DNA from: Elusimicrobiota bacterium
Lineage (GTDB): Bacteria > Elusimicrobiota > Elusimicrobia > Elusimicrobiales > UBA9959
Reading direction: 5' to 3'
Assembly (NCBI GenBank): GCA_016208085.1
Contig: JACQYT010000016.1
Location: forward strand, 62,001-126,000
DNA: 64,000 nucleotides
Below, one piece after another: positions 1,940-61,730 of the stretch (position 1 is the first letter of the stretch; each line of letters opens with the position of its first letter). The notes beneath the pieces are model-generated. The model did no database searches. It had not been told where the DNA came from and saw only the letters and a program-made list of their open reading frames with translations. Both the position numbers and the translations under genes were made by a program.

Positions 1940-3067
1940 ATGAAAACAAAAAACATGCTGGCGCTTGCAGTTATTTTAATTTTCTGCGCCGCAATCGGTT
2001 TCTCCGCGCAGACTAAAACCGGCGATGGGAAAATAAAACGCAAGGCAAAAATGTCCGCTCCGGCCCGGGCGCCCGTGAAAAAACCGGCCGCAAAAGCGTC
2101 CGTCGCGACGGACGCGGCGCCCGCGGGAAAAAAACCCGAAATTTCATCCGCGACGGTTGTAACGGAGACTCCTTTTGAAACAGCGTTCAAAGAGTCAAAA
2201 TCAGGCAATCCGGCCGTCAGACGGCAGGGAGCGGACCAGTTCGGCCAGCTCAGGGACGGAAACGCGATTGGCCGTCTTGTTGAACTTTTAAACGATCCGA
2301 CAGGCTATGTAAGAGCCGCAGCCGCGGATTCCCTCGGCCTTTTGAGAGGCGGCGGGGACAAAGCCACGGAGAAACTGTGCGAAATGCTCGCAAACGACCC
2401 TGATGAAACAGTCAGGCAAACCATAGCGATTTCTTTCTCCTACATAGGCGACCGGAAAAGCGAAGACTGCCTGATCAAAGCGGTTAACGACAAATCCGGC
2501 GCGGTAAGATACGCCGCCATAAGAACTATCGGGACTTTAAGATTCTTCAAAGCTGAAAGCGAACTGATTAAACTGGTGGACAGCGGGGATTTGCAGATAA
2601 GGAGGAGCGTTATTGATACCCTTGGCCGGCTTCAGTCAAAAAACTCGGCCGACGCCCTGATAAAGCGCTCAGATGACGAGGATAACTATGTAAGGCAGGC
2701 GGTTGCCAGGGCATTAGGCGAAATAGGCGATGTGGCCGCTGTGCCCGCCCTCAAAACAAAACTAAGCGATCCCGACGATTCAGTTAAACTGGAGGCGGCT
2801 CTTGGCCTCGCCAAATTGAACGATAAAAGCGGCCTGGAACTGGCTGGTGAATTCGCGAAGTCAAAGGAAATAGCGCTGAAACAGCAGTCTTTGACCATTC
2901 TCTCAATGACAGGAGACGAAAAGAGCCTTAAAATCCTCGATGAACTGTATGAAACCGAGCAGGAACCCGGCTTAAAAAATTTTATAGACTCGTGCAGACG
3001 AGCCGTTAAATCAAGGCTGAAACCGGTGAAACCTCCGTTGACCCGTCAAGACCCGCGTGAGCCTTGA
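1940..3067 (+). CDS. Exported HEAT-repeat protein
   Basis: A 375-aa protein. Residues 1-24 form a signal peptide (MKTKNMLALAVILIFCAAIG then FSAQ). A lysine/alanine/proline-rich linker follows (about 25-80). From about residue 85 to 350 there are seven or eight HEAT-like repeats of about 31 residues with the pattern D-x-x-x-x-V-R-x-x-A-x-x-L-G, for example YVRAAAADSLG, VRQTIAISFSYIG and YVRQAVARALGEIG. HEAT arrays of this PBS-lyase type are protein-binding scaffolds, so this one likely acts in the periplasm or at the surface with an unknown partner. The reading frame extends upstream to 1892 (16 more residues), but the signal peptide begins cleanly at 1940. The consensus promoter of the next unit begins inside its last codons. 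Confidence 0.75.
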   Translation: MKTKNMLALAVILIFCAAIGFSAQTKTGDGKIKRKAKMSAPARAPVKKPAAKASVATDAAPAGKKPEISSATVVTETPFETAFKESKSGNPAVRRQGADQFGQLRDGNAIGRLVELLNDPTGYVRAAAADSLGLLRGGGDKATEKLCEMLANDPDETVRQTIAISFSYIGDRKSEDCLIKAVNDKSGAVRYAAIRTIGTLRFFKAESELIKLVDSGDLQIRRSVIDTLGRLQSKNSADALIKRSDDEDNYVRQAVARALGEIGDVAAVPALKTKLSDPDDSVKLEAALGLAKLNDKSGLELAGEFAKSKEIALKQQSLTILSMTGDEKSLKILDELYETEQEPGLKNFIDSCRRAVKSRLKPVKPPLTRQDPREP

Positions 3068-3092
3068 CAAAATCCGGTTATTCTGCTATAAT
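3064..3092 (+). promoter_or_regulatory. Consensus sigma-70 promoter for riboswitch unit 1
   Basis: TTGACA at 3064-3069 and TATAAT at 3087-3092 are separated by exactly 17 nt, a perfect consensus housekeeping promoter. The -35 box overlaps the stop codon of the upstream HEAT gene. Transcription would start near 3099 and give a leader of about 160 nt that contains the riboswitch at 3172-3256. A promoter this strong ahead of a leader RNA fits control after initiation. Confidence 0.85.
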
Positions 3093-3171: not shown

Positions 3172-3256
3172 ATCCGATAATAGCAAAGCCGGCTAAAGCC
3201 GGCGGCGCAAAGCTGCGACCCGCTAAGTGCGCGGGGGTCAGGCTACCGAAGATGGT
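3172..3256 (+). ncRNA. GEMM-I (cyclic dinucleotide) riboswitch 1, A20-type
   Basis: The leader has the ordered hallmarks of the GEMM-I aptamer. AGCAAAGCC is followed by a GCCGGC-TAAA-GCCGGC hairpin in the P1b position, then GGCGCAAAGC, then a second stem (GACCCGC pairing with GCGGGGGTC), then the closing CAGGCTACCGA segment. It matches the second element at 52154 in order and spacing. In the Vibrio Vc2 aptamer, G20 lies just before GCAAA and recognises one base of c-di-GMP; here that base is A, as in the cyclic AMP-GMP-sensing GEMM-Ib class. The numbering is from memory. The downstream ATG lies 4 nt after the aptamer, so ligand binding could act on translation or on transcript elongation. Confidence 0.85.
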
Positions 3257-3259
3257 TGT

Positions 3260-3487
3260 ATGAAAAAGCTGTTTTGCCGCCATTATCCGTTTTTTAAGGC
3301 CGCAGTGGCCGCGCTTTCCTGTTTGGGGGAAGCGCTGTCGTTGCGGTTCTTTTTATCCGGTCTTTCCGTTGTGCCGTTTATTTACTACAATAACGGAGCG
3401 CAGTATCCCGCCATGGGAACGGTTATTCCCATGGGGGTTGTTTGTTGTCGCGCCGGCGCTTTCGCTGCTGAATGTCCCCGGATTTAG
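3260..3487 (+). CDS. Small hydrophobic protein under riboswitch control (possibly frameshifted)
   Basis: A 75-aa ORF that begins MKKLFCRHYPFFKAAVAALS, with a basic start and a long hydrophobic stretch that could be a signal peptide or one to two membrane segments. The start at 3260 follows the riboswitch; a GTG further upstream lies inside the aptamer and is not credible. The last 20 residues (VVCCRAGAFAAECPRI) look out of character, and shifting frame near 3435 gives a hydrophobic tail ending PGFSEAL just before the next gene, so a frameshift or decay is possible. An inverted repeat at 3411-3434 lies just before that point. I recognise no family. The next gene starts 9 nt after the stop, so the two are probably co-transcribed. 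Confidence 0.45.
   Translation: MKKLFCRHYPFFKAAVAALSCLGEALSLRFFLSGLSVVPFIYYNNGAQYPAMGTVIPMGVVCCRAGAFAAECPRI
3411..3434 (+). repeat. Perfect 9-bp inverted repeat within the small ORF
   Basis: CCATGGGAA (3411-3419) and TTCCCATGG (3426-3434) are exact reverse complements around a 6-nt loop. The hairpin lies within the coding region, just before the point where the frame seems to degenerate. There is no T-run, so it is not a typical terminator. Confidence 0.5.
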
Positions 3488-3496
3488 CGAGGCTTT

Positions 3497-4150
3497 ATGA
3501 CTGATTTTCTAAAACGGTTTTTCAATGTTTTGAAGCGCGAAAAAGCGGGGTTTTGCGTTATAAGCGGTTTAGCCGCGCTGAGCCTGTTGTTGTGGGCGCC
3601 GTCTTTCGCCCAGAAAGATTTTAAAAACTCCGACAGGAATACGCGCCTTGAGGCAGTTAAGAAATCGGGTGAAACCGGCGCTCCCGGCGCGCTCAAATTT
3701 TTAAAAGAGGCCGCGAACGACGAGGATCCTTATGTCAGAGGGCAGGCCGTGAAAATAATAGGCGCATTGAAATCCAACGAATCTCCGGCGATTCTTAGTG
3801 CGGCGTTAAAAAGCGGGGATGCCAATACGAGATATGGGGCTGTTGAAGGGCTTGAGGCTTTGGGCGGCATAAAAGCCGTCGGCCTGCTCATAGGCCTTTT
3901 GGAACACAAAGACAGAAATACGCGCTGGAAAGCTGTTGTCGCGCTTGGGAATTTAAAAAATGACAGGGCCGTGGAACCTCTCCTTAAAACAGCCCGGGGA
4001 GAAAAAGACGAATATGTAAAAACAGCGGCTGTTGAAAGTCTCGGGAAAATAGGAACAAAAAAAGCCAGGGCGGCGTTGAATGTTCTTAAAACCGACAAAG
4101 ACGGGAAACTGTCAAAATGGGCGGAGAATGTATTGAAGGCGGCAAAATGA
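3497..4150 (+). CDS. Exported HEAT-repeat protein with borrowed N-terminus
   Basis: A 217-aa protein. Residues 1-40 (start MTDFLKRFFNVLKREK, hydrophobic LAALSLLLWAP, then SFAQ) form a plausible but unusually long signal peptide. Residues about 45-215 hold five HEAT/PBS-lyase-type repeats, for example PYVRGQAVKIIGAL, NTRYGAVEGLEALG, NTRWKAVVALGNL and YVKTAAVESLGKIG. The array resembles that of the HEAT protein at 1940 and probably binds proteins outside the inner membrane. GAGG 7 nt upstream supports the start. The first 75 nt are 88 percent identical to 106-180, inside the nucleotidyltransferase gene at 62, so its leader seems to derive from a copy of that unrelated gene. It lies 9 nt behind the small riboswitch-controlled ORF and probably shares its regulation. 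Confidence 0.7.
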   Translation: MTDFLKRFFNVLKREKAGFCVISGLAALSLLLWAPSFAQKDFKNSDRNTRLEAVKKSGETGAPGALKFLKEAANDEDPYVRGQAVKIIGALKSNESPAILSAALKSGDANTRYGAVEGLEALGGIKAVGLLIGLLEHKDRNTRWKAVVALGNLKNDRAVEPLLKTARGEKDEYVKTAAVESLGKIGTKKARAALNVLKTDKDGKLSKWAENVLKAAK

Positions 4151-50307: not shown

Positions 50308-51720
50308 ATGAAACTTAAAGTCAATCGGATCGCGTTAAAGCTATCGTTGCTTGCCTCTCTCTTCATCCTGGCCGTCATCGCCGCGATGACCGGGATCCTG
50401 CTGCAACAGGGCGAGCAGGCGATGATATCGGAGATGAAGCTCAGATCCATCGCGTATGCCCGTTCGGCGGGAGAAGCCATTTTTCCCCAGCTTGATACCT
50501 TTACCCTTCATTTCAACACGCAGGAAATGCTGAAAGAAAAGGGAGTAGAGTACGCCTTAATCTTAGCTGCCGATCGCAGGATTTTATCGCACACGGACCC
50601 GCAAAAAATCGGCGGAATCGACGCGAGCCCGGTCGCCCGGCGCGCTTCTGAATCCCCGAACGCGCTTGTCCAGCAATATTCCAGCCGCGGCGTTTCTTTT
50701 TTCGACATTTCGGCGCCAGTATTCTCCGGCAACCGCAGGACGGGTACGGTACACATCGGTTTTACGCGGGCTTCCGTGGCGGGCAGCCTGAAGGACGCTA
50801 AAAAACAGGTGCTTGTGCTGGTCGGTTCCGCGATTATACTATGCATAGCGGGTTCAATTCTTATTGTCGGTTGGATGCTTCGGCCGCTGCCTGTGCTGGC
50901 ACAGGCGACACTGGAAGTGGGAAAGGGTTGTCTGGATGTGCAGGTTAATTTTAAGATGAAAGATGAAATAGGCCAGCTGGCGCAAGCCTTCAACCGGATG
51001 GTCGCCGGTCTGCGCGAAAAGGAAATGATCCGTAGTACGTTCGGGCGTTATATGTCCAAAGAAGTGGTGGACGGTTTCCTTAACGGCAAGGTATCCCTGG
51101 AGCTTGGAGGCGAACTGAAGGAAATGTCGATCCTTATGTCCGACATCCGGGACTTTACGGAGCTTTCCGAAAAACTCCCGCCGCATGACGTAGTTCAGCT
51201 ATTAAACCGCTATTTCACCGAAATGGTACAGGCAATTGGAGCCCATGGCGGGACCGTGGATAAGTTTATCGGGGATGCCATCCTCGCCGTTTTCGGCTGG
51301 CCCCTGTACCGCCAGGACCACGCGAAGTTGGCGGTTACCGCGGCCCTGGAGATGAAGGAACGCCTAGCCGTTCTTAACGGCGCTTTAGTGAAGGAAGGCC
51401 GCAAGCCTATCGCGATCGGAATAGCCATCCATACCGGCAAGGCCGTAGCCGGCAATATCGGCAGCCTGGAGAAGGTGCAATACACGGTTATCGGCGATAC
51501 CGTGAACCTGGCCTCCCGCATGGAATCAGCCAACAAAGATTACGGCACCGATTTGATCGTGAGCCGGCCCGTATACCTGGCGACCAGCGGCTATTTTGAC
51601 TTTCAGGATATAGGTGAGAAGCCCGTGAGGGGACGCACGGAAGCCGTGCATATTTACCAGGTTTCAGGCCATAAACCCAACCGCCCTCCCCCGCCCGCTC
51701 CCGGTTCCGCCGGCCATTGA
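50308..51720 (+). CDS. Membrane-bound class III adenylate cyclase with HAMP domain
   Basis: A 470-aa protein. Membrane helix at about 9-31, extracytoplasmic sensor of about 140 residues, second helix at about 171-192 (VLVGSAIILCIAGSILIVGW), HAMP at about 192-246 (MKDEIGQLAQAFNRMVAGLR), and a class III cyclase domain at about 265-455. Metal aspartates lie in MSDIRDFTEL (about D279) and DKFIGDAILAVFG (about D323). GDTVNLASRME supplies the transition-state Asn and Arg. Lys before FIGD and Thr in YTVIGD fit ATP as substrate. The product would be cAMP, made in response to a periplasmic signal. It begins 3 nt after the secreted FN3 protein, so it belongs to that operon and may sense the state of the envelope or surface. 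No other cyclic-nucleotide gene is in view. Confidence 0.85.
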   Translation: MKLKVNRIALKLSLLASLFILAVIAAMTGILLQQGEQAMISEMKLRSIAYARSAGEAIFPQLDTFTLHFNTQEMLKEKGVEYALILAADRRILSHTDPQKIGGIDASPVARRASESPNALVQQYSSRGVSFFDISAPVFSGNRRTGTVHIGFTRASVAGSLKDAKKQVLVLVGSAIILCIAGSILIVGWMLRPLPVLAQATLEVGKGCLDVQVNFKMKDEIGQLAQAFNRMVAGLREKEMIRSTFGRYMSKEVVDGFLNGKVSLELGGELKEMSILMSDIRDFTELSEKLPPHDVVQLLNRYFTEMVQAIGAHGGTVDKFIGDAILAVFGWPLYRQDHAKLAVTAALEMKERLAVLNGALVKEGRKPIAIGIAIHTGKAVAGNIGSLEKVQYTVIGDTVNLASRMESANKDYGTDLIVSRPVYLATSGYFDFQDIGEKPVRGRTEAVHIYQVSGHKPNRPPPPAPGSAGH

Positions 51721-51791
51721 CACTTAGAGACGGTATTACTGAGCCTCGCATACGTCTCAAAGCTGAACCTCCAGTGTGTCCATTATTTATT

Positions 51792-52024
51792 AAAAATTTT
51801 TGCGGCAAAAATTTTTAATATACCCCGCCCCCAAGCCGCGGGGAAACCTTAGGAGCCGTTAAGAAATAACTGACACATTTGGAGGCACAGCTTTGAGCTG
51901 GATGCAAGGCGCGACGACGATGGTGTAGCAGAGCTACATTGAGGAGGAGCAACGCAGCAGCCGGCCAAAGATGTGCCTCCCCCAGGGGGCTGGTACATAA
52001 AATGTTGCCCGGCAACATTTTATT
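51792..52024 (+). mobile_element. Family-2 palindrome-ended element with different cargo
   Basis: The left hairpin AAAAATTTTTGC-G-GCAAAAATTTTT and right hairpin AAAATGTTGCC-C-GGCAACATTTT plus ATT are identical to those at 43124-43292, and it again follows TTTATT. The interior differs. It holds a segment bounded by GGAGGCACA (about 51880) and TGTGCCTCC (about 51972), a long imperfect inverted repeat that occurs nowhere else in the window. There is no ORF, and therefore no transposase. Confidence 0.8.
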
Positions 52025-52066
52025 CAGGCTGAATTAAGGCGAAGTTTGTCCCTTTTTAAGGCCCCT

Positions 52067-52080
52067 ATTGACATGTCAAT
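52067..52080 (+). promoter_or_regulatory. Perfect 14-bp palindrome upstream of the promoter
   Basis: ATTGACATGTCAAT is self-complementary and ends 10 nt before the -35 box at 52091. Its size, symmetry and position fit an operator for a dimeric regulator. The regulator is unknown. The other riboswitch unit lacks it. Confidence 0.45.
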
Positions 52081-52090
52081 AAAATAGGTC

Positions 52091-52118
52091 TTGACAAACG
52101 GTTTATATCTGCTATAAT
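52091..52118 (+). promoter_or_regulatory. Consensus sigma-70 promoter for riboswitch unit 2
   Basis: TTGACA (52091-52096) and TATAAT (52113-52118) are both perfect, with a 16-nt spacer, inside CTGCTATAATATA, which is also found at the promoter at 3064. Transcription would begin near 52125 and run through the riboswitch into the PorV-like gene, and perhaps into the motor genes. Confidence 0.85.
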
Positions 52119-52153
52119 ATAGTAACGATGAGTTAACAAATCCGTAAAGTGAT

Positions 52154-52237
52154 GTTGCGATAATAGCAAAGCCGGCGAAAGCCGGCGGCGCAAAGCCATG
52201 ACCCGCTGATCACGGCGGGGGTCAGGTTGCCGAAAAC
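52154..52237 (+). ncRNA. GEMM-I (cyclic dinucleotide) riboswitch 2, A20-type
   Basis: It shows the same ordered elements as the copy at 3172: GATAATAGCAAAGCC, a GCCGGC-GAAA-GCCGGC hairpin with a true GNRA tetraloop, GGCGCAAAGCC, a stem of GACCCGC with GGCGGGGGTC, and a closing AGGTTGCCGA. A replaces the usual G before GCAAA, as in cyclic AMP-GMP aptamers. The differences from copy 1 mostly fall in loops, a sign of selection on structure. The ATG of the PorV-like gene begins 2 nt after the aptamer. It is therefore likely to control production of that outer-membrane protein and perhaps of the downstream motor genes. Confidence 0.85.
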
Positions 52238-52238
52238 A

Positions 52239-53882
52239 ATGAAACGCTTATTTCATAGTGTTATTGCCCCGTTAAGAAGGGCGTTGATGAGCGGTGCCGG
52301 CCCGGCCGTTCGCGGCCGTTTCTTAACGGGGGTTTCTTTTGCGGTTTTTTTCTCTACCCTCTACCCTCTACCCTCTACCCTTTCCGCGCAGTCCGGCGGC
52401 CAGCCTGCGCAGTTTATGTCATACGGCGCCGGCGCCAGGGGCCTCGGCATGGGCGGGGCGTTCTTTGCGGTGGCCGACGACGCTTCCGCCTCATACTGGA
52501 ACCCCGCGGCGCTGATCATGCTTGAAAAAAAAGAAGCCACCGCCATGCAAGCGAGCCTCTTCGCCGACACCACGCTGAATTTTTTCACCTACGCTAATCC
52601 CACCGCCTCCAGAGGCACCTGGGCGCTTTCTATGACCCAGTTGAAATCCACGGGTTTTGAGAAGATAGAGATCACGCCCAATCCAGCGGGAGACGAAATA
52701 ATAGATATCAAATCTCTCGGGACTTTCGATAATACGGAACGCGCGTTCGCTTTTTCCTGGGGCCGCGAAGTCTCCGACAAGCTTTCTTTCGGCGTCATGG
52801 CCAAAAATATTTCCCGCCGGCTCGACACTTCAAAGGATTCTTTCAACGCCATAGACATCGCGATGCTGCAGAAGTTTTCAAAGATCTACAGAATGGCGAT
52901 GGGCATCCAGAACGTATTCTCCATAGTTTCGGGCGATACCGACGACAAGCTGCCGCTCACCCTTAAACTGGGGCAGGCCCTGAGCCTTTTTAAAGGCGGC
53001 CTTGTGTTCGGATTTGACATCGCCAAACCCCAGAGCGCCGCGATGAACTGGAGGTTCGGCGGAGAATACTGGCTTATGTCCTGGTCGGCTTTAAGATTCG
53101 GCGTCATGGGCGCGCCCGCCATCCAGGAAGCGGATTTCGGCGTGGGCATCAAGTACAGGAATTTCGGCTTTGACGTGGCTCAGGGCGTGCACGCCCTGGG
53201 TTCCACCACCAGGTTCTCGGTCACCATGCGCATGGGGCGCTCCAACAGGGCCAAACATGAGAAAGAGGTCAGGGATATCATACGCCAGGCGATGCAGTAT
53301 TTTAAATCCGGTTATTTCACTAAGGCCATAGCGAAGCTTAAATCCGCCTTGGACTCCGACCCCGGCAACAATGACATACGGCGCATGATAAGCCGCCTTG
53401 AGCTTGCGGTGGGTTATGTGCCGGACGCCACCGGAGGAGAGGAAGTGCCCACCCTTACCAGAAGAGGCATAATCAGCTACGTGGATGGAAATGACCTGAG
53501 GACCGCTGTCAACGTGCTAAGGCACGCGTTCAATAAAGCCCCGAAGAATGATCGGCTTTTGAGCCTGCTCAATATGGTGGAAAAAGAGGCCAATCTTTCC
53601 GAACTGACCAGGCCGCCCGAAGGCCCGCAGATCTTCACCTACATAGACCAGCGGACATATGACGCCAGGCAGTCGATCTACGACGGCAAGTACGATCTGG
53701 CCATGAAGCGCGCGCAGGACATACTTGATCTTGAACCCAACAACGAAACCGCGCTTGAGATCATGGGCAGCGCTTTCTACCTTATGGACCAGAAAGACAA
53801 AGCCGGCGTCATGTGGGAGAAAGTTCTGGAGATTAATCCCAACAACAAGATTGTAAGACAGTTCCTCAAACAGACGAAGTAA
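52239..53882 (+). CDS. PorV-like outer-membrane barrel fused to TPR domain (riboswitch-controlled)
   Basis: A 547-aa protein. The start ATG directly follows the riboswitch; a TTG 12 nt upstream lies inside the aptamer and is rejected. Residues 1-51 form a long signal peptide with STLYPLPSTLSA encoded by a 7-bp repeat. MSYGAGARGLGMGGAFFAVADDASASYWNPAALI (in parts: GAGARGLGMGGAF and YWNPAAL) is the PorV/PorQ signature, and the barrel runs to about residue 340 (FSVTMRMG). From about 350 to 547 the protein is helical with TPR-like repeats (for example AIAKLKSALDSDPGNND, AMKRAQDILDLEPNNETA, KVLEINPNN). It is the second such protein in the window and shares the two-part plan with the one at 43412. 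It is followed after 114 nt by the rotor fusion gene, so it may be the outer-membrane part of that machine. Confidence 0.8.
   Translation: MKRLFHSVIAPLRRALMSGAGPAVRGRFLTGVSFAVFFSTLYPLPSTLSAQSGGQPAQFMSYGAGARGLGMGGAFFAVADDASASYWNPAALIMLEKKEATAMQASLFADTTLNFFTYANPTASRGTWALSMTQLKSTGFEKIEITPNPAGDEIIDIKSLGTFDNTERAFAFSWGREVSDKLSFGVMAKNISRRLDTSKDSFNAIDIAMLQKFSKIYRMAMGIQNVFSIVSGDTDDKLPLTLKLGQALSLFKGGLVFGFDIAKPQSAAMNWRFGGEYWLMSWSALRFGVMGAPAIQEADFGVGIKYRNFGFDVAQGVHALGSTTRFSVTMRMGRSNRAKHEKEVRDIIRQAMQYFKSGYFTKAIAKLKSALDSDPGNNDIRRMISRLELAVGYVPDATGGEEVPTLTRRGIISYVDGNDLRTAVNVLRHAFNKAPKNDRLLSLLNMVEKEANLSELTRPPEGPQIFTYIDQRTYDARQSIYDGKYDLAMKRAQDILDLEPNNETALEIMGSAFYLMDQKDKAGVMWEKVLEINPNNKIVRQFLKQTK
52354..52381 (+). 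repeat. Heptamer CTACCCT x4 inside a signal-peptide coding region
   Basis: Four perfect copies of CTACCCT encode the hydrophobic end of the signal peptide (STLYPLPSTL). The same heptamer, as CTACCCT or its complement AGGGTAG, is arrayed at 55984-56018 and 56128-56155. A one-unit change in length would shift the reading frame. Confidence 0.9.
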
Positions 53883-53912
53883 AAGGCTGAGAGCTATCCG
53901 CAGCATCTTTTC

Positions 53913-53947
53913 CTTCAGCCCTCAGCCTTCAGTCTTCAGCCTTTATC
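53913..53947 (+). repeat. Degenerate heptamer array CTTCAGC x5
   Basis: The units are CTTCAGC, CCTCAGC, CTTCAGT, CTTCAGC and CTTTATC. A complementary AAAGGCTGAG sits just after the stop of the PorV-like gene (53882-53891), so the intergenic spacer is bounded by an inverted pair. Confidence 0.75.
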
Positions 53948-53996
53948 CATACTTATGAAATGTTTTTGTAATACGATATATGTAAAATAAAGCAGT

Positions 53997-55985
53997 ATGA
54001 AAAAGTTTATCGCCGCGGGACCGGTCCGCGCCGTTATCTATTTTATGTTCTCCGCGCTCTGCGGCGCGGGGCTTGTCCCGCTTTACGGGGTGGAGCCGCT
54101 GGACGCTTCGTTGATGAACAAGCAGGACTCCCTGCGCCGTGAAATAGAAGACAAGATAAAACAGGATATCCTGGACCCCATATTCGGCCCCGCCAGGGCC
54201 TTCGTATTCGCGGATATGGAGCTTCAGCTCATTTCCCTGAAAGCCGAGCAGAGCAAAGAAGGCTCGGGGGCGGTCCAGAAATACAAGGAAAAAGGCGCGA
54301 CTTCCGGCGGCATGGGACATGAGGCCGATTTCCTGATGCCAGGCATTCCGACGCCCAAATCCATACTAGGGAAAAGCAATACCCGGCCGAAGGAGGGGAG
54401 AGGCATCCTCACCCAGCAGGCCCAGGGCATAGAGCAGATAAGGTACGGCCTTCAGACCGAATTCAGAAAGTTTCAGGTGACTGTCATCCATGATAACAAG
54501 ATCTCAAGCGATACCGTAAAGATCGCCAGGGACCAGGTAACCGATTTCCTTGCGCCCTATCAGATCAAGCTGTCCGAGAAGATCGGCGGCAAAGATCAGT
54601 TTCGTCCGGCGACGGTCCTTTTTAAGCCGACCAGGTTTAATAGCTATAATATGCTTGACGATTTAAAAAGGCCCAGCGTCTATCTGCCGCTTTTATACGC
54701 GGCGCTGGCCCTTTTGCTGCTGCTGTTCCTGTTCGGGCCTCTGTGGGGATTCTTCAGGAAATACGTCAACGCCCTGCTGGCCAAGCCCGGCGCCGAAGTG
54801 AACATAGACCAGAAAATGGAGGAAGGCGGCGAGGGAGGCGGCGGGAAGGGAGGAGGCGCCGAGGAAAGCCGCCAGCAGATTGACATGAACTTCAAACAGA
54901 CGGGGGAAGAGGAGGAGTTTATGAAAAAATTTGAACCGTTCACCTATATCACGGAAGAAAATCTCAAAAGGCTCATTTATCTGTTTTTGCTGAGGAAAGA
55001 GGAGCCCTGGGTCATAGCGATAGTCTTGAACTACATGAAACCGGAGCTCGCCAGGCAGGTGCTTTCGTCTTTGCCGGTGGAAATGCAGTCCAGGGTGGCC
55101 ATGGAATCCCTGACGGTCAAGCAGGCCAGCGGGGAGCAGATAAAGGCGATAGATAAGGAGATAAAAGAGAACATAGATTTTGTGATGGGCGGCATAGAGA
55201 GGTTCGCAAGGATGCTTGAGGACTCCGAACCGACCATCAGAAAGAATATCCTTGAATATCTTAAGACCCAGAAGCCCGACATTTATGAAAAAGTAAAGAG
55301 GAAGATACTGATGTTCGAGGACGTGACGGGCTTCCCGGACAAGGACATGCAGCTCATAATAAGGAGCGTCGGCAACGAAGACATCGCGAAGGCCGTCTAC
55401 AAGGCCGATCCGCAGATCGTGAACAAATTCTTCAACAACATGTCCCAGGGCGCGGTAAAAGTCATCAAGGAGATAATGGAATATTCGGGGGAACTCACTC
55501 CTGTGCAGGTGGACGAAGCACAGATGAAAGTCCTAGACGCCGTCAAAACCCTGGAGGCGGAGGCGAAGATAAACGTGCGCCGGCAGAGCTCCCAGGAAAT
55601 AGATATAATAGACGGCTCTGAAATGTCTACGGACGCGCAGAGAAGAGAGAAATTCCAGAACATAGCCGGCTTCCCCCAGGCTTTTGGGGGGCGCCCGGAG
55701 TCTCCCGCCGCGCCGTCGCCTGAGAACGCCGCGCAAGCTCAAGCCTACATGAGCGCGGGCGCCGACCTTTACAACCAGGGGCGTCACGAGGAAAGCCTCC
55801 AGTATCTGGAATACGCCGCCGGCCTTGACCCCGCCTCGGCCGCCATTCAACAGTACCTGGGGGCCTCTTATTACGCTTTAGGGCGCATGACGGAAGCGCT
55901 GACGGCTTATGAACTCTACGCCCGGCTTTCAAACGACCCGGCGGTAACCGAATGGCTGAACAATTTTAAAGCGCAGGCAAAATAG
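53997..55985 (+). CDS. FliF(C-terminal)-FliG-TPR fusion, rotor-like protein
   Basis: A 662-aa protein. Residues 1-30 form a signal peptide or membrane anchor. Residues 45-210 match the C-terminal periplasmic domain of FliF: LDPIFGPARAFVFADMEL corresponds to the LEPIVGPGxVRAxVxAxxD segment, LMPGIPTP to the G-V-P-G loop, and FRKFQVTVIHD to the LSVAVLVD strand. A membrane helix spans 228-248. After a Glu/Gly-rich linker, residues 318-430 match the FliG middle domain (EEPWVIAIVLNYMKPELARQ, EH/PQ-like region) and 433-530 the FliG C-terminal domain (KILMFEDVTGFPDKDMQLII, VDEAQ). Residues 583-660 hold two TPRs. FliF normally forms the MS ring and FliG the torque-bearing switch ring. The N-terminal ring-building motifs of FliF are absent. 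MotA/MotB follow downstream. There is no clear Shine-Dalgarno sequence. I infer a rotor of a non-flagellar motor. Confidence 0.8.
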   Translation: MKKFIAAGPVRAVIYFMFSALCGAGLVPLYGVEPLDASLMNKQDSLRREIEDKIKQDILDPIFGPARAFVFADMELQLISLKAEQSKEGSGAVQKYKEKGATSGGMGHEADFLMPGIPTPKSILGKSNTRPKEGRGILTQQAQGIEQIRYGLQTEFRKFQVTVIHDNKISSDTVKIARDQVTDFLAPYQIKLSEKIGGKDQFRPATVLFKPTRFNSYNMLDDLKRPSVYLPLLYAALALLLLLFLFGPLWGFFRKYVNALLAKPGAEVNIDQKMEEGGEGGGGKGGGAEESRQQIDMNFKQTGEEEEFMKKFEPFTYITEENLKRLIYLFLLRKEEPWVIAIVLNYMKPELARQVLSSLPVEMQSRVAMESLTVKQASGEQIKAIDKEIKENIDFVMGGIERFARMLEDSEPTIRKNILEYLKTQKPDIYEKVKRKILMFEDVTGFPDKDMQLIIRSVGNEDIAKAVYKADPQIVNKFFNNMSQGAVKVIKEIMEYSGELTPVQVDEAQMKVLDAVKTLEAEAKINVRRQSSQEIDIIDGSEMSTDAQRREKFQNIAGFPQAFGGRPESPAAPSPENAAQAQAYMSAGADLYNQGRHEESLQYLEYAAGLDPASAAIQQYLGASYYALGRMTEALTAYELYARLSNDPAVTEWLNNFKAQAK

Positions 55986-56155
55986 GGTAGAGGGTAGAGG
56001 GTAGAGGGTAGAGGGTAGAGGGGGGAGAGGCGAGCGAACGAGTATATTGAATTAATAATTTTTTAATTAAAATGTAATCTCTACCCTTTAAAATATACAC
56101 GGCAAACGATAACGGCAGGGTAAACTTCTACCCTCTACCCTCTACCCTCTACCCT
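55984..56155 (+). repeat. Inverted heptamer arrays flanking an intergenic spacer
   Basis: AGGGTAG x5 (55984-56018), whose first unit overlaps the fusion gene's stop, is the exact reverse complement of CTACCCT x4 (56128-56155), which ends 6 nt before the next ATG. The arms of at least 28 bp could pair around an AT-rich 109-nt spacer. The pyrimidine array occupies the site where a Shine-Dalgarno sequence would be. Confidence 0.9.
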
Positions 56156-56161
56156 TATTTT

Positions 56162-58528
56162 ATGGCCGATAAAGATCCGAACGAGGAAAAAAAGATGAAT
56201 TTGCCGCCTCTACCGCCGGGCTTTCCCAGGCCCGGCGCTTCACAGCCTCCCGTTGGCGGGAGCGGTAAACCCATCCCGCCCCTGTCCGGCCAGGGTAAAC
56301 CCGCCCCTCCCATGCCGGGGGGCGCTCCGGCCTTCCCTTTTACCCAACCCCGCGGCGCGCAGCGGGATGCCGCCGCCGAAGAAGCCGCTAGGATGAAGGA
56401 AGACAGGGACAAGCTTGAAAAAAAGATAAGCGACATGGAGCGCCTGCTTTCGCAGGAAAAAGAGAAAGCGCTTCTGGCCACTTTAAAAAGCCAGCAGGAC
56501 GAGGCGCTTTCCTCCAAGGTGGAGTCTTCGCTGAAAGACATACAGGACAAGCTCCGCCGCGACAGACATGAACAGGAAACGGCGGAAGAACGGCTGACCC
56601 TTAAAGCAAAAATAAAAGAGCTTGAGACCAGGCTTGTGCAGGAGCGCGAAACCTGGATGCAGACTTTGCAAAGCCAGATGCAGGAGCGCGAGAGCGCGTC
56701 CAAGGATGTGGAAGGCCATTTCATTTACCGGCTTCAGGAGCTGGAGCGGCGCTGGCTTGAGGAAAAGGCCCAGTGGCAGAAGAATTTCGTGCAGAAAGAG
56801 GACGAAGTGCGCTCTCTTAAGCACAGTGCGGAAAAGCTGCGCGAGGTCTCCGACGAGCTGCGCCTGACGAACCTTGACAAGATAATGCTCGAGAAAGAGG
56901 CCGGCAGGTTCAAGGACGAGCTAGCCAGGGTGGAGCGGGACATAGCGCGGGATAAAGCCGCCGTTGATATTTACATGAGGAACCTCCCGGAAAAAGAGCG
57001 TGAGCTCGCCAATCTGCGCGCCGAGGTCTCCATGGCGAAAATGCGCGAGGAGCGCGCCCACGCGGATTTTAGGTCAAGGGAAGAAAAACTGCATTCCGAA
57101 CTGGACAGGCTGCAAAAGGATATCGGCTCGGTTGCGGACCGCAAGAACGCCGAAAAAGAGGAGGAACTGCAAAAGCTCCAGGCCCGCTACGAGGCCATGC
57201 TCCACGAGAAAGAGAACGCCGTGGCGCAGGTGTCCGGGGAAAAGATACGGGCCGTTTCGGAACTCGTGAAGATAAAAGGCTTTATCGCCAGGGTCCAGGC
57301 CGTCAACGCCGCGCTGGATAAGGAGCGCGGAAATCTGCGCGTTGAAAAGATGCAGCTGGCCCAGTCCATGGCCGCCAATATAGAAGAGACCAGGAAGATA
57401 AAGCAGGAACTGGAACATTTCAGGGCGACCCATCAAGGCGAAATAGACGAACTGATGAAAAAACACCAGGCGCGGCTTGAGCAGATAAAGGAAAACTATG
57501 CCGGCGACGTCGCCAGGGAATACAACGAGAAGCTGAGCCGCGCCGGGCAGGAATACCAGCAGGAGAAGCTCAGCCTTATAAAGAAGCGCCAGGACGAAAC
57601 AGCGGCTCTCGCTGCCGCGCTCCAGGAAGAGCACGCCAAAGCCGCCCGCGCGCAGCAGCAGGAGCTCACGGCGCGCCAGGAGGAATCCGCCAGGGCCGCC
57701 CGCGCGCAGCAGGAGGAACTTGCGAAGCTCTCCCAGGCGCATCAGCGGGAGCTTGCGGCGCGCCAGGAGGAATCCGCCAGGGCCGCCCGCGCGCAGCAGG
57801 ATGAATTGACAAGGGTCTGCCTGGAGATGAGGAATAAATACGAGAGCGACATAACCGAAATAACGACCGGCCAGAAAAAGCGTCTTGAACAGGAATATAC
57901 GGAAGAGATAAATAAGCTTAAGGAAGCAAAAGCCAGGTCGGAAGAGGCGGCGGTGAAACTGGAGGCCGAAACGCTGCGCCTGTCCGAAGAAGTGAAAAAT
58001 TCCGAGCTGTTGCTGTCCAGGAAGCAGAAAGAATTCATGGCCGCCGCGGCGCAAGCGCTTGGGACCAGGAAAAGTCTTGAAGCCAGGATCAGTTCCCTTA
58101 GCGCCGAAAAAGCGGATTATGAACAACGCTGTTACGCCGCGGAGGCCGAGGCGAAACGCCTTGTAATCGATCAAACCGGACTTAAGGCGGGTTTTGAGGC
58201 CCTTGCTGCCGAGAAAACCGCGAAAGAGGCCGACCTCGCGCGCCTGGCCCAGGACCTGAGATTGGAAAGCGACAACCGCGCCGGATTTGAATCCGAACTG
58301 CTGTTCCTTAAGCAGAAGATCCAGCAACTGGAATACCAGGGGACCGACCTGGCCGGGCAGCTTGAAGCGAAAAGGCAGGACCTGGCGAACGCCAGGGAAG
58401 CCGCCGCGCTGGACGCCCAGACCGCCCAGGGGCAAATAGACGCGCTGTCGGCCGAAGTGGAAAAATATAAAAATATAGAGAAATCTTTTGCAGAGCGGCT
58501 GAAGTGGGCGCTGAAGGGGAGAGGGTAG
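56162..58528 (+). CDS. Long cytoplasmic coiled-coil protein with proline-rich N-terminus
   Basis: A 788-aa protein without signal peptide or membrane segment. Residues about 10-65 are rich in proline and glycine (PPLPPGFPRPG, PPMPGGAPAFP). From about 75 to the end the sequence is almost continuous charged heptad coiled coil (Glu, Lys, Ala, Leu, Arg). Residues about 500-560 contain a recent 29-residue duplication around RQEESARAARAQQ; a 45-bp stretch is identical at 57670-57714 and 57757-57801. It lies between the FliF-FliG fusion and FlbD/MotA/MotB, so a scaffold or spacer role for that machine is likely. AglZ, a coiled-coil scaffold in Myxococcus gliding, is an analogue in role only. No Shine-Dalgarno sequence is seen, because a 7-bp repeat array sits there. 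Confidence 0.7.
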   Translation: MADKDPNEEKKMNLPPLPPGFPRPGASQPPVGGSGKPIPPLSGQGKPAPPMPGGAPAFPFTQPRGAQRDAAAEEAARMKEDRDKLEKKISDMERLLSQEKEKALLATLKSQQDEALSSKVESSLKDIQDKLRRDRHEQETAEERLTLKAKIKELETRLVQERETWMQTLQSQMQERESASKDVEGHFIYRLQELERRWLEEKAQWQKNFVQKEDEVRSLKHSAEKLREVSDELRLTNLDKIMLEKEAGRFKDELARVERDIARDKAAVDIYMRNLPEKERELANLRAEVSMAKMREERAHADFRSREEKLHSELDRLQKDIGSVADRKNAEKEEELQKLQARYEAMLHEKENAVAQVSGEKIRAVSELVKIKGFIARVQAVNAALDKERGNLRVEKMQLAQSMAANIEETRKIKQELEHFRATHQGEIDELMKKHQARLEQIKENYAGDVAREYNEKLSRAGQEYQQEKLSLIKKRQDETAALAAALQEEHAKAARAQQQELTARQEESARAARAQQEELAKLSQAHQRELAARQEESARAARAQQDELTRVCLEMRNKYESDITEITTGQKKRLEQEYTEEINKLKEAKARSEEAAVKLEAETLRLSEEVKNSELLLSRKQKEFMAAAAQALGTRKSLEARISSLSAEKADYEQRCYAAEAEAKRLVIDQTGLKAGFEALAAEKTAKEADLARLAQDLRLESDNRAGFESELLFLKQKIQQLEYQGTDLAGQLEAKRQDLANAREAAALDAQTAQGQIDALSAEVEKYKNIEKSFAERLKWALKGRG

Positions 58529-58581
58529 AGGGTTTAGGGTATAGGGTTCAGAGTAAGGAGTTACTTATCCCTATACCCTTT
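58520..58581 (+). repeat. Heptamer array with inverted partner
   Basis: AGAGGGT, AGAGGGT, TTAGGGT, ATAGGGT (58520-58547) overlap the stop of the coiled-coil gene. The complementary CCCTATACCCTT follows at 58569-58580. Together they can form a hairpin ahead of flbD. Confidence 0.75.
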
Positions 58582-58602
58582 CTTTATGTATAATTAATTA
58601 CA

Positions 58603-58827
58603 ATGATAAAACTTCAGAAGTTAAACGGCGTCGACGTCATCGTGAACGCGGACCTCATAGAGAGTATCGAGGCCGCGCCGGACACCGTTATTAACCTTGC
58701 GACCGGCAACCGCTTCCTGGTCAAAAACAGCGTTGACGACGTGGTGGCGAAGGTGGTCGAGTACAAGAAAAAGATCCATTCGGGCGGCAAAGTCGTAAAC
58801 CCTATAGATGGATACGAGAAGAAGTAG
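58603..58827 (+). CDS. flbD: FlbD family protein
   Basis: A 74-aa protein matching the short FlbD family across its length: MIKLQKLNGVDVIVNADLIE, then IEAAPDTVINLATGNRFLV, then a VVEYKKKI helix. FlbD-like proteins are usually encoded directly ahead of motA and motB in flagellar operons; their biochemical role is not well defined. Here it keeps that position (MotA follows, after a 348-bp spacer with a mobile element) although no other flagellar structure gene is seen. No Shine-Dalgarno sequence is visible. A TATAAT at 58589 lies just ahead, but without a good -35. Confidence 0.85.
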   Translation: MIKLQKLNGVDVIVNADLIESIEAAPDTVINLATGNRFLVKNSVDDVVAKVVEYKKKIHSGGKVVNPIDGYEKK

Positions 58828-59168
58828 GTAGTAGGTAGGGGTCGGATGAGATCCGAACTCCTTAAAACCTATCTACTAACCCGAAAATTGCCCGCCTGCC
58901 AAGTATTACATAGCTTCAGTTTATTCGGCAATTGGGCGGGCAGGCAATTGATATCAATTTGTATTGACAACTTGATGAATAAAAATATCCATGCAATTTT
59001 CGGGTGTCCGTTCACCTTTTGAACACGTCCGGCCGGTCGGTTTACCCTACCTACCGGCAGGCAGGCAATGAGCGCCGATGTGTTTTCGGTTCGCCGGTCA
59101 GGGCAGAAACCGAAAAAATTCAGCTTGAACTGAAACTTTCAGGCTAACTACCACCTACTACCTACTGG
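58823..59168 (+). repeat. Inverted heptamer pair around the flbD-motA spacer
   Basis: AGTAGGT x2 (58823-58836) overlaps the flbD stop, and its exact reverse complement ACCTACTACCTACT lies at 59153-59166 just before motA. Between them are the family-1 element (58880-59004) and about 140 bp with no gene. That remainder holds a short fragment of the GC-rich CCGGCAGGCAGGCAA block also inserted at 43338. Confidence 0.8.
58880..59004 (+). mobile_element. Family-1 palindrome-ended element, uninterrupted copy
   Basis: 125 bp bounded by CCCGAAAATTGC and GCAATTTTCGGG. An inner inverted repeat (TTGCCCGCCTGCC with GGCGGGCAGGCAA) can extend the stem. It is the empty-site form of the element at 43078-43391. 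It has no coding capacity. Confidence 0.85.
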
Positions 59169-59175
59169 AGACAAC

Positions 59176-59988
59176 ATGGATATCGCGACATTTACAGGAA
59201 TAATAGTATTCCTTGGTTTCGTTTTCGCGGCCGTTTTCGTGGGCGGCGACTACAAACTGTCCGCTTTCGAGCCCTTCATAAACCTGGAGGCCGGCCTTGT
59301 CGTAATGGGTGGCACTTTTTGCGCTATTCTGGTCAATTATCCGCTTTCCGCTGTTATAGGAGTGGGTAAGGTTCTCAAGCAGGTTATGACTTCCAAGGGC
59401 GAAGACACTTCCCGGCTGGTCGTGACTTTTCTAGGTCTTTCGCAAAAGGCCAAAAAAGAAGGTTTTCTGGCTTTAGAAACCGATGTCAAGGCTCTGGACA
59501 ATGATTTTCTTAAACGGGGCGTTCAGCTGGTCATAGACGGCGCGGACCATGAATTTATAAGGAACATGCTCGAGACGGAACTGGATTTTATCAGGGAGCG
59601 ACATAAGGTCGGCAGGGAGATCTTCAACGCCCTCGGCACCTACGCGCCGGCTTTCGGGATTATCGGCACGGTGCTGGGCATGATAATGATGCTGGCCACC
59701 ATAGACGACGTGGGGCAGGTCCCCAAGCGCATGGCTCTGGCGCTTTCAGCCGCTTTCTACGGCCTGGGCGCCGGTTACTGGCTTTTCCTGCCGATGGCCG
59801 GCAAGCTCAAGCACAGGTCGGAGGAAGAGCTTTTTGTAAAAGAGATAATAATAAGAGGCGTGCTCCTTTTACAGAGCGGCGCCACGCCCAGCGTCGTGGA
59901 GGCGAATTTAAAAGCCTATCTTGAACCTTCCAAGAGAAAGACCGTGACGAAAGAAGAAGAGAAAGGCGCCGGTAAAGCGGGAGCGTAG
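59176..59988 (+). CDS. motA: MotA stator protein
   Basis: A 270-aa protein with the standard MotA plan: helices at about 4-22 and 35-57, a large cytoplasmic loop (about 60-150), and helices at about 155-173 (TYAPAFGIIGTVLGMIMML) and 187-210 (ending GYWLFLPMAGKL). The two conserved prolines (TYAP, FLP) are present, and the loop ends IRERHKVGREIF, with charged residues in the region that contacts FliG. MotA pairs with MotB as a proton- or sodium-driven stator. GGAG 6 nt before the ATG supports the start. The FliF-FliG fusion encoded upstream is the natural candidate for its rotor partner. Confidence 0.9.
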   Translation: MDIATFTGIIVFLGFVFAAVFVGGDYKLSAFEPFINLEAGLVVMGGTFCAILVNYPLSAVIGVGKVLKQVMTSKGEDTSRLVVTFLGLSQKAKKEGFLALETDVKALDNDFLKRGVQLVIDGADHEFIRNMLETELDFIRERHKVGREIFNALGTYAPAFGIIGTVLGMIMMLATIDDVGQVPKRMALALSAAFYGLGAGYWLFLPMAGKLKHRSEEELFVKEIIIRGVLLLQSGATPSVVEANLKAYLEPSKRKTVTKEEEKGAGKAGA

Positions 59989-60013
59989 CCCGAAAATTGT
60001 CCGCAATTTTCGG
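59989..60013 (+). repeat. Minimal family-1 palindrome directly after motA
   Basis: CCCGAAAATTG (59989-59999), TCCG, then CAATTTTCGG (60004-60013). These are the two ends of the family-1 element with the interior missing. As with the copy at 43078, it begins at the base after a stop codon. Confidence 0.75.
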
Positions 60014-60114
60014 AAGGATGAAGGATGAGGGATGAAGGATGAAGGTAAAGACAATAGAAAATAAAGAGAGTTCTCTGACCCTTAGCCTTTAGCCTTTATC
60101 CTTTAGCCTTTCAG
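60014..60114 (+). repeat. Two heptamer arrays in the motA-motB spacer
   Basis: AAGGATG, AAGGATG, AGGGATG, AAGGATG occupy 60014-60041, in the complement sense of the TCATCCT array at 43441. CCTTAGC, CTTTAGC, CTTTATC, CTTTAGC, CTTTCAG occupy 60080-60114 just before motB. These two are only partly complementary. Confidence 0.8.
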
Positions 60115-60123
60115 TTTTTATTT

Positions 60124-60909
60124 ATGCCTTTAAAAGTCAGGAACATGATAGCTGAAGACGATCCAAGGGTGTGCCAGATAGGCCATCCGGCGCCGCCGTG
60201 GCTCGTCAATTACGCCGACCTGATGACCGAAATGGTCTGCTTTTTCGTCATCCTCTACGCCCTGTCCGCCGCGTTGAACAAGGATATGCAGGGCGCCCAG
60301 GAGAAGATAAAGGAAATGATTGAGAAGGGCAAGATGCAGGGGACTGTGGCCATAGACAAAGAGGGCCTCAGGATAACGCTTGAGGAGCAGAAAGACCGTA
60401 TCTTTTTTATGAGCGGCAGGGCCGAATTGACCGACGATATGAAGGCAGCGCTTGAAAATGTCGTCCCGGTCCTGGCTAAGCTTTCCGGCAAATACGATAT
60501 ACTGGTGGAGGGACATACCGACAACGTCCCGATAGCCACCAGGCAGTTCGCCTCCAACTGGGAGCTTTCCACGGCCCGGGCAACCAACGTGGTTAAAGTT
60601 CTGCTGGCGCGGCCGGGATTTGTTCCCAGTAAAATGGCCGCCGTCGGCTACGGCGAATACCATCCGATCGTGGTAAACAATACCGAGGAGAACAGAAAGA
60701 AGAACCGCCGGGTGGTATTCTTCGTAAAAATCAATTCTTACCCGGACGCGTCCAAAAAACCTTCTTCGCCCCCGAAAAAAGGGGCATCAGCGGTCATCGT
60801 AGCCGCTGATGAGGGCGCTCCGCATGCGGCCGGCGCGATTTCCGAAGCCGCGCAGCCCCAGGCCCCGCCCGGCGAACAGACTGAAGCGGCGCAGCAGGAG
60901 GGCCGATGA
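60124..60909 (+). CDS. motB: MotB stator protein with OmpA-like domain
   Basis: A 261-aa protein. The single helix at about 26-48 (WLVNYADLMTEMVCFFVILY) carries the ion-binding Asp at position 32, the same number as in E. coli MotB. A Glu at 36 where a hydrophobic residue is usual is odd. Residues about 128-210 are the OmpA-like peptidoglycan-binding domain (VEGHTDNVPI, NWELSTARA, VGYGEYHP, NRKKNRRVVFF). The C-terminal 45 residues are a low-complexity Pro/Ala tail. It anchors the MotA stator to the cell wall. It is separated from motA by 135 bp holding a minimal palindrome and heptamer arrays, and no Shine-Dalgarno sequence is visible. Confidence 0.9.
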   Translation: MPLKVRNMIAEDDPRVCQIGHPAPPWLVNYADLMTEMVCFFVILYALSAALNKDMQGAQEKIKEMIEKGKMQGTVAIDKEGLRITLEEQKDRIFFMSGRAELTDDMKAALENVVPVLAKLSGKYDILVEGHTDNVPIATRQFASNWELSTARATNVVKVLLARPGFVPSKMAAVGYGEYHPIVVNNTEENRKKNRRVVFFVKINSYPDASKKPSSPPKKGASAVIVAADEGAPHAAGAISEAAQPQAPPGEQTEAAQQEGR

Positions 60910-60911
60910 AT

Positions 60912-60976
60912 AAAAATTTTTGCGGCAAAAATTTTTACCATTCCCCGCCCTCTAGGGCGGGAAAACCTTGGGGCAA
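60912..60976 (+). repeat. Left-end fragment of a family-2 element
   Basis: AAAAATTTTTGC-G-GCAAAAATTTTT followed by a CCCGCCC/GGGCGGG hairpin and AACCTTGGGGCAAG. It matches the left 65 bp of the element at 43124 but lacks the right end. It starts 2 nt after the motB stop and ends 10 nt before the next ATG. Confidence 0.8.
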
Positions 60977-60986
60977 GAAGGATTTA

Positions 60987-61730
60987 ATGAAAACCGCGGC
61001 GCTGGGCGTTTCTTTCGTGTTTCTCACCGGCTGTTTCGGCGGATTTAAAAGCCTTAAGGTCGTGGATCTGACCGATACGCGGGTGGGAGACCTTTCTCTG
61101 ACCAAAAAAGTGACCGGCAAGCGCGAGTTTCTTCTTTTCTCCACCACCAAAACGGGGGTATTCCTTGAGGGGAATATCCAGGGCATAATCACCGATTACC
61201 AGGGCAACCCGATAGAGGGCGTCACGGTCAAGGTCATGCCGGACACGGGCCGTTCAAAGACCGGCGAAACGGCGTCCGATGCTTTCGCCGGCGTAGAAGA
61301 AAATGTCGGCGCCGCCATCAATCTCTCTTTCGCTCCCGGCATCAGCGATTCCATGGGGCTTTTTAAGATCCGCTTTTCGCTTCCGCTCGTTGACAAGGAA
61401 GTGGACGTCAGGGGCAAGCTGGTCTATAATCCGGGCTGGGACCAGGCCAGGCTTAACCTGGGCAAGGCCTACGAACCGCAGATGAAAGATTCTCCGTTCA
61501 GGCTCTACTATAGTATGAAAACCGGCTTTCTGGCTTTTGCCGAGGGCGTACGCAAAGCGATAGTTCAGCCGGTGGGCGAGGGCCAGGGCAAGCTCAAGGT
61601 CCTGCCCGGCTCCGCCGCCCCGCAGACGTTGACGCCCGCTGTGGAACCCGCCACGGGCCAACCTCCGGCCGCCGGCGCCCCGGACAAGGCCGAGGAAGAC
61701 CTTTTCAAAGGCTTCGATTTCGGCCAATAA
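60987..61730 (+). CDS. Lipoprotein with carboxypeptidase-regulatory-like domain
   Basis: A 247-aa protein. The start at 60987 is chosen because it gives a clean lipoprotein signal (MKTAALGVSFVFLTGC, Cys16 as the lipidated residue) and has AAGGA upstream; the frame also runs back through the mobile fragment to 60906, which is unlikely to be translated. Residues about 55-150 (GNIQGIITDYQGNPIEGVTV) resemble a CarboxypepD_reg-like beta-sandwich. The C-terminal 50 residues are Pro/Ala-rich and end DLFKGFDFGQ. It is the last gene before housekeeping genes and probably forms the periplasmic or outer-membrane part of the MotAB-associated unit. No specific function is recognised. Confidence 0.65.
   Translation: MKTAALGVSFVFLTGCFGGFKSLKVVDLTDTRVGDLSLTKKVTGKREFLLFSTTKTGVFLEGNIQGIITDYQGNPIEGVTVKVMPDTGRSKTGETASDAFAGVEENVGAAINLSFAPGISDSMGLFKIRFSLPLVDKEVDVRGKLVYNPGWDQARLNLGKAYEPQMKDSPFRLYYSMKTGFLAFAEGVRKAIVQPVGEGQGKLKVLPGSAAPQTLTPAVEPATGQPPAAGAPDKAEEDLFKGFDFGQ

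Follow-up and report, generated by a model that had tools for sequence, protein, structure and literature searches.

A GEMM-I riboswitch of the A20 subtype upstream of HEAT-repeat and giant-protein genes in an Elusimicrobiota family

Introduction

GEMM-I riboswitches that carry an adenine at the equivalent of nucleotide 20 of the Vc2 aptamer (A20) have been called sensors of cyclic AMP-GMP (cGAMP). The closest described examples are the GEMM-Ib switches of Geobacter, in which an A20G exchange in the Gmet_0970 switch shifts selectivity from cGAMP to c-di-GMP, and the A20 switch of pgcA prefers cGAMP ~1200-fold (PMC6456294). Nucleotide 20 is described as a selectivity factor and not as a hard filter: cGAMP riboswitches can bind c-di-GMP via a protonated adenine, and the Cd1 switch of Clostridioides difficile bound c-di-GMP without much change when its corresponding base, G11, was mutated to A (PMC9262584). 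The Hypr enzymes that synthesize cGAMP have Ser or Thr where canonical GGDEF domains have Asp (PMC9140294, PMC6456294). A literature search on Elusimicrobia and riboswitches returned nothing relevant, although the library was partial and the result is only weak evidence of novelty.

The locus described here lies in a stretch of 64,000 nucleotides (the window) of an Elusimicrobiota genome that is 90% complete. A preliminary description, made from the letters of the window, had proposed a GEMM-I riboswitch of the A20 signature ahead of a HEAT-protein unit, and had read the adenine as a sign of cGAMP signalling.

The window aptamer and its locus

The elements of the locus are listed below; all coordinates are those of the window unless a contig is named.

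3064-3092, + strand: sigma-70 type promoter, TTGACA-N17-TATAAT, 12 of 12 matches, with an extended -10 (TG)
3172-3250, + strand: GEMM-I (c-di-GMP-I, RF01051) aptamer, A20
3182, + strand: the A equivalent to nucleotide 20 of Vc2 (model position 11 in the RF01051 alignment)
3260-3487, + strand: leader ORF of 75 codons, its ATG 9 nt after the aptamer
3298-3348, + strand: predicted intrinsic terminator hairpin within the leader ORF, ~-34 kcal/mol by folding
3349-3357, + strand: U-rich tract of the terminator
3497-4150, + strand: exported HEAT-repeat protein of 217 aa, with a signal-peptide-like N-terminus
4330-43077, + strand: secreted giant protein of 12,915 aa, with Ig-like repeats and a FlgD_ig-like C-terminus, presumed to be a downstream member of the unit

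The covariance search with RF01051, which the preliminary description had named as the check on its proposal, gave 51.5 bits, where the gathering score is 35, with an E value of 3.8e-7 computed for the whole window and all 4227 Rfam families. The alignment covers the full model (1-87 of 87), and a search of the whole genome agrees. Of the interval first proposed, 3172-3256, the start was correct, while the aptamer ends 6 nt sooner, at 3250. The base before GCAAA, at 3182, is indeed an A, which places the element in the A20 subtype; the Vc2 numbering was obtained by counting from the conserved GCAAA. From its alignment and predicted fold, we judge the element to be a genuine GEMM-I riboswitch of this subtype.

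The P2/P3 fold and the outer P1 helix can be recognized in the window aptamer, and pairing of P2 and P1a is kept throughout the family, while the P3 of the window aptamer is imperfect, with several mismatched positions in the alignment. The outer P1a strands are pairable in 73 of 99 aptamers, versus 47.4 +/- 3.3 (maximum 58) in shuffles, a figure inflated by the kinship of the sequences. The P2 loop of the window aptamer is UAAA and not GNRA, and the CUAA/UAU segments of the model are absent, such that the docking of a GNRA tetraloop into a P3 receptor, a contact typical of the class but not a condition of Rfam membership, is not seen. Owing to the UAAA loop, the missing segments and the mismatched P3, the affinity of the aptamer could be low. 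The same features, together with a score below those of two neighboring aptamers, one elsewhere in the window and one just ahead of it, could even be taken to mean that the aptamer is degenerate, has lost its response to ligand and has left its terminator as a constitutive attenuator. The aptamer has nevertheless retained its binding core, P2 and the outer P1a pairing, and the same short P3 recurs, with terminators, in homologues across the family; we consider such decay highly improbable.

The promoter lies ~80 nt upstream of the aptamer and the intrinsic terminator downstream, the arrangement of a transcription-terminating riboswitch. The HEAT-repeat gene (PF13646, E 8.8e-41) begins 9 bp after the leader frame, and its signal peptide bears out the earlier reading of an exported HEAT protein downstream of the switch. 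The small hydrophobic protein that had been proposed alongside it fared less well: the frame is present (86 codons, 75 when counted from the ATG at 3260) and its position is conserved in 12 homologous loci, but no constraint at the protein level was seen. Substitutions among homologues fall almost evenly on the three codon positions (211:220:250), with 382 non-synonymous versus 84 synonymous codon differences, and the leader ORF was accordingly rejected as a real small protein. The giant gene is one open frame of 12,915 codons with many Ig-like repeats, and most relatives have ORFs of more than 2,400 codons at the corresponding place, truncated only where the examined DNA ends. That the promoter at 3064-3092 also drives this gene is an assumption based on how the genes are ordered and oriented; a promoter scan alone covered the 180 bp upstream of the giant ORF.

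GEMM-I switches across the genome and the family

Four GEMM-I aptamers were detected in the source genome by the whole-genome search. Three of them, absent from the preliminary description, are additional to the switch at 3172: one at 52155-52234, one at genome coordinates C3:61815-61894, ~0.2 kb before the first position of the window, and one on contig 41. The C3 copy carries a G at the position of interest (G20) and scores 59.7 bits. The elements around the second aptamer of the window are as follows.

52155-52234, + strand: second GEMM-I aptamer, A20 (RF01051, 70.7 bits)
52239-53882, + strand: outer-membrane PorV/UPF0164-like TPR protein of 547 aa, its ATG a few nt past the second aptamer
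52267-52331, + strand: intrinsic terminator hairpin, within the signal-peptide codons of the PorV-like gene

The G20 switch has a terminator of its own and lies 3.3 kb upstream of the A20 switch at 3172, with which its aptamer shares 91% identity across 80 nt. The nucleotidyltransferase-like ORF downstream of the G20 switch opens with a segment (window ~101-176) that matches the signal-peptide codons at the 5' end of the HEAT-repeat gene (3501-3575) with 88% identity across 75 nt, and it seems from this likeness that a duplicated fragment was recruited as the signal peptide of the HEAT protein. Near the second aptamer of the window, the region 50308-61730 encodes a class III nucleotide cyclase, the PorV-like TPR protein, a FliG-domain fusion, MotA and MotB/OmpA-like proteins, a cluster that suggests a surface motor.

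In addition to the source genome, 47 of 58 family-level relatives contain GEMM-I aptamers. Among 100 distinct family aptamers, 88 carry A20 and 12 carry G20. The named records that share the A20 core are mostly MAGs of Elusimicrobia or Elusimicrobiales, in agreement with the earlier suggestion of an elusimicrobial relative. By their neighborhoods the switches fall into four syntenic classes. Classes A1 and A2 stand upstream of HEAT/giant-protein loci, A2, which includes the switch at 3172, being the class with a leader ORF. In class B, which includes the aptamer at 52155, the coding sequence of a PorV/UPF0164-like TPR protein starts a few nucleotides after the aptamer. Class C precedes genes for a Kelch-like protein and a PorV-like protein, names that derive from reading of the sequences and not from a family search. 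Terminators of -10 kcal/mol or lower were predicted for all 30 switches of class A1, all 11 scored as A2, 38 of 40 in class B and all 15 in class C; these counts are approximate, owing to an automatic division that placed two A2 loci (L043 and L055) in class B and a few others in A2. The terminators of classes A2 and B fall within an ORF whose start is no more than ~16 nt from the aptamer.

Judged by this conserved gene order, the GEMM-I switches are part of a conserved, predicted surface-protein regulon in one Elusimicrobiota family. Such a regulon would provide a first experimental handle on the very large surface proteins (12,915 aa) of these uncultured bacteria.

Further repeats were observed in the leaders. 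In class B (L023-L035 and others), the interval between promoter and aptamer contains a direct repeat of the type CTGTAAC-N4-CTGTAAC, which resembles a Pho-box-type site; in class A2 loci a GTAAC repeat of similar kind is followed by a TATAAT directly ahead of the HEAT genes. In class C (L006, genome C41:6582-6684; relatives L062-L073), a second copy of the 3' half of the aptamer, e.g., GCCGGCTAAGCTGCCGAA, occurs downstream of the aptamer as part of the 5' arm of the terminator, which suggests a putative strand-exchange expression platform.

Enzymes and the identity of the ligand

In these genomes, cGAMP synthases were sought by the residue at the selectivity position of GGDEF domains (Ser/Thr versus Asp, the Hypr test). 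All six GGDEF domains found in the source genome have Asp at this position, as do all 30 in five relatives rated 98-100% complete (36 of 36 inspected). Across 59 family genomes, the Asp-type pattern matched in 56, while a DNA pattern for the alternative residues (NDxxGHxx-G-[S/T/C/R]) returned five hits, none of which lay within a GGDEF domain; no Ser/Thr GGDEF was thus found in the family. The SMODS nucleotidyltransferase domain (PF18144) was not found in the source genome, within the 90% that is covered. Neither kind of cGAMP synthase, a Hypr Ser/Thr GGDEF or a DncV-like CD-NTase, was therefore detected in the source genome, in which two PilZ c-di-GMP receptor domains are present. A synthase in the missing tenth of the genome is possible, but is made less likely by the family-wide survey, which likewise contains no Ser/Thr GGDEF. 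One Asp-type GGDEF (L008, genome C3:22960-23436) is conserved and has an unusual motif, GGDEI; in several relatives it is found ~30-40 kb ahead of the locus with the riboswitch and the giant protein.

GEMM-I aptamers with A20 also occur outside the Elusimicrobiota, in Bacillota, Omnitrophota, a Nitrospirae MAG and others. Among 13 such genomes that were checked, all encode Asp-type GGDEFs, and no Hypr GGDEF was detected in 12. The Nitrospirae MAG (L184 with L107) encodes a GAF-GGDEF protein whose Hypr position is occupied by Ser (NDTHGHLAGS...GGDEY) alongside an A20 GEMM-I switch. It is, on these residues, a candidate cGAMP system outside Geobacter, and it demonstrates that the Ser/Thr pattern can find a true case. 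In an Omnitrophica MAG (L083, 4937-5029), a match to RF03167 (c-di-GMP-I-GGC, 61.4 bits) shares its contig with a nearby A20 GEMM-I aptamer.

The window switch could still be a true cGAMP (GEMM-Ib) riboswitch, with an enzyme that escapes the Ser/Thr Hypr signature. A20 is present in 88 of the 100 family aptamers, the A20/G20 selectivity switch is published for Geobacter (PMC6456294), the Nitrospirae MAG indicates that A20 aptamers and genuine Ser-type GGDEFs are paired outside that genus, and in a genome that is 90% complete a synthase of a novel kind is conceivable. This explanation is weakened by the enzyme surveys described above, in the family as well as in the 12 further A20-bearing genomes without a detectable Hypr enzyme, and by the behavior of the nucleotide itself. 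Orthologous switches carry either base: in class C, the switch of the source genome has A20 and that of a genome of the same genus (G001) has G20, ahead of the same downstream gene, and such interchange of A and G is repeated among orthologous switches of sister genomes. We thus regard a dedicated cGAMP switch as rather unlikely.

The same interchange would be compatible with a promiscuous aptamer, which accepts c-di-GMP and cGAMP alike and in which nucleotide 20 drifts, since the cells would have only one messenger; the published view that nucleotide 20 influences selectivity without being a hard filter (PMC9262584) points in this direction as well. The strong excess of A20 (88 of 100) is, on the other hand, suggestive of selection over drift, although the sequences are related, and we find promiscuity distinctly unlikely.

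The occurrence of Asp-type GGDEF domains alone in the source genome and in the five relatives favors c-di-GMP, which we consider the probable ligand of the window aptamer, with some reserve. On these comparisons, the letter A20 does not appear to be a reliable sign of cGAMP in this family. The preliminary claim that the adenine denotes a cGAMP sensor is accordingly not upheld by the Asp-only GGDEFs, the lack of a detected SMODS domain in the source genome, the absence of Ser/Thr GGDEFs among the 59 genomes and the A/G flips between orthologues; its extension of cGAMP signalling to a new phylum is backed by nothing beyond the A itself. Since nearly all of its switches are A20, no synthase of a known type was found and A and G are exchanged, the family constitutes a natural test of the rule by which A20 is used to call cGAMP sensors.

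Coupling of aptamer and terminator

The explanation that we favor overall, with moderate confidence, is that the window element is an A20 GEMM-I transcription attenuator, which most likely senses c-di-GMP and gates the HEAT and giant-protein genes. The intrinsic terminator is the basis for inferring attenuation. The aptamer would sense a cyclic dinucleotide, most likely c-di-GMP, and its binding would alter the passage of RNA polymerase through the terminator, and hence the expression of the HEAT and giant-protein genes.

The way in which the aptamer acts on the terminator appears to differ among the classes. In class A1, the 3' tail of the aptamer, CCGAAGA, is complementary to UCUUCGG in the 5' arm of the terminator (median z -1.18 versus shuffled arms), which would fit an OFF switch of the Cd1 type. 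In class A2 the corresponding median z is -0.47, and at the window locus z is 0.05. A direct antiterminator formed by the 3' end of the aptamer and a terminator arm found no support in classes A2, B and C, in which the pairing was no better than with shuffled arms. An anti-aptamer helix of GGCGCAAAGCU with AGCUGUUUUGCCGCC, present in the equilibrium fold of the whole window leader, was likewise set aside, as no equivalent was seen in the A2 homologues. In class A2, the 3' end of the aptamer thus probably does not act by simply pairing with a terminator arm.

The terminators of classes A2 and B lie in codons just past the aptamer, which makes a coupling through translation initiation an attractive guess, and our preferred one for the window switch is that translation of the leader ORF may couple the aptamer to readthrough of the terminator. 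The model is weakened by the lack of codon-level constraint on the A2 leader ORF. The intragenic terminators are deeper than those of synonymous-codon shuffles (medians -21.2 versus -11.1, and -29.3 versus -14.7), but the shuffled sequences were at least as deep as the natural ones in 20 of 132 and 109 of 468 cases, and the comparison is thus supportive only. A bolder combination, in which ligand-controlled initiation of translation gates transcription through in-codon terminators (in the leader ORF of A2 and the signal-peptide codons of B), while A20 reads a messenger, possibly cGAMP, from an unrecognised synthase, is in our estimation very unlikely.

Comparison with known riboswitches

With the GEMM-I family as modelled in RF01051, the window switch shares the full-length covariance match, the GCAAA and CGCAAAG core, the equivalents of A47 and C92, and a position upstream of surface-protein genes with an intrinsic terminator after it. 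It departs from the family in its A20, in a shortened P3 without CUAA/UAU, in the UAAA loop of P2 and in a terminator that lies inside an ORF opening directly after the aptamer.

The GEMM-Ib switches of Geobacter (pilM, pgcA) are similar in A20 and in transcriptional control by an intrinsic terminator. In contrast to Geobacter, the Hypr GGDEF was not found in the 59 family genomes, nor SMODS in the source genome. The targets are also different, being cytochromes and pili in Geobacter and the HEAT/giant and PorV/Kelch proteins in the Elusimicrobiota. Moreover, the aptamer and terminator folds of pilM are mutually exclusive (PMC9262584), whereas the window terminator does not overlap the aptamer.

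The latter arrangement is shared with Cd1 of C. difficile, a c-di-GMP transcriptional OFF switch, in which aptamer and terminator can likewise coexist. Unlike Cd1, the window switch, as a member of class A2, displays no complementarity between aptamer tail and terminator arm above chance. The resemblance is closer in its class A1 sisters, whose tail and terminator 5' arm could form a Cd1-like antiterminator.
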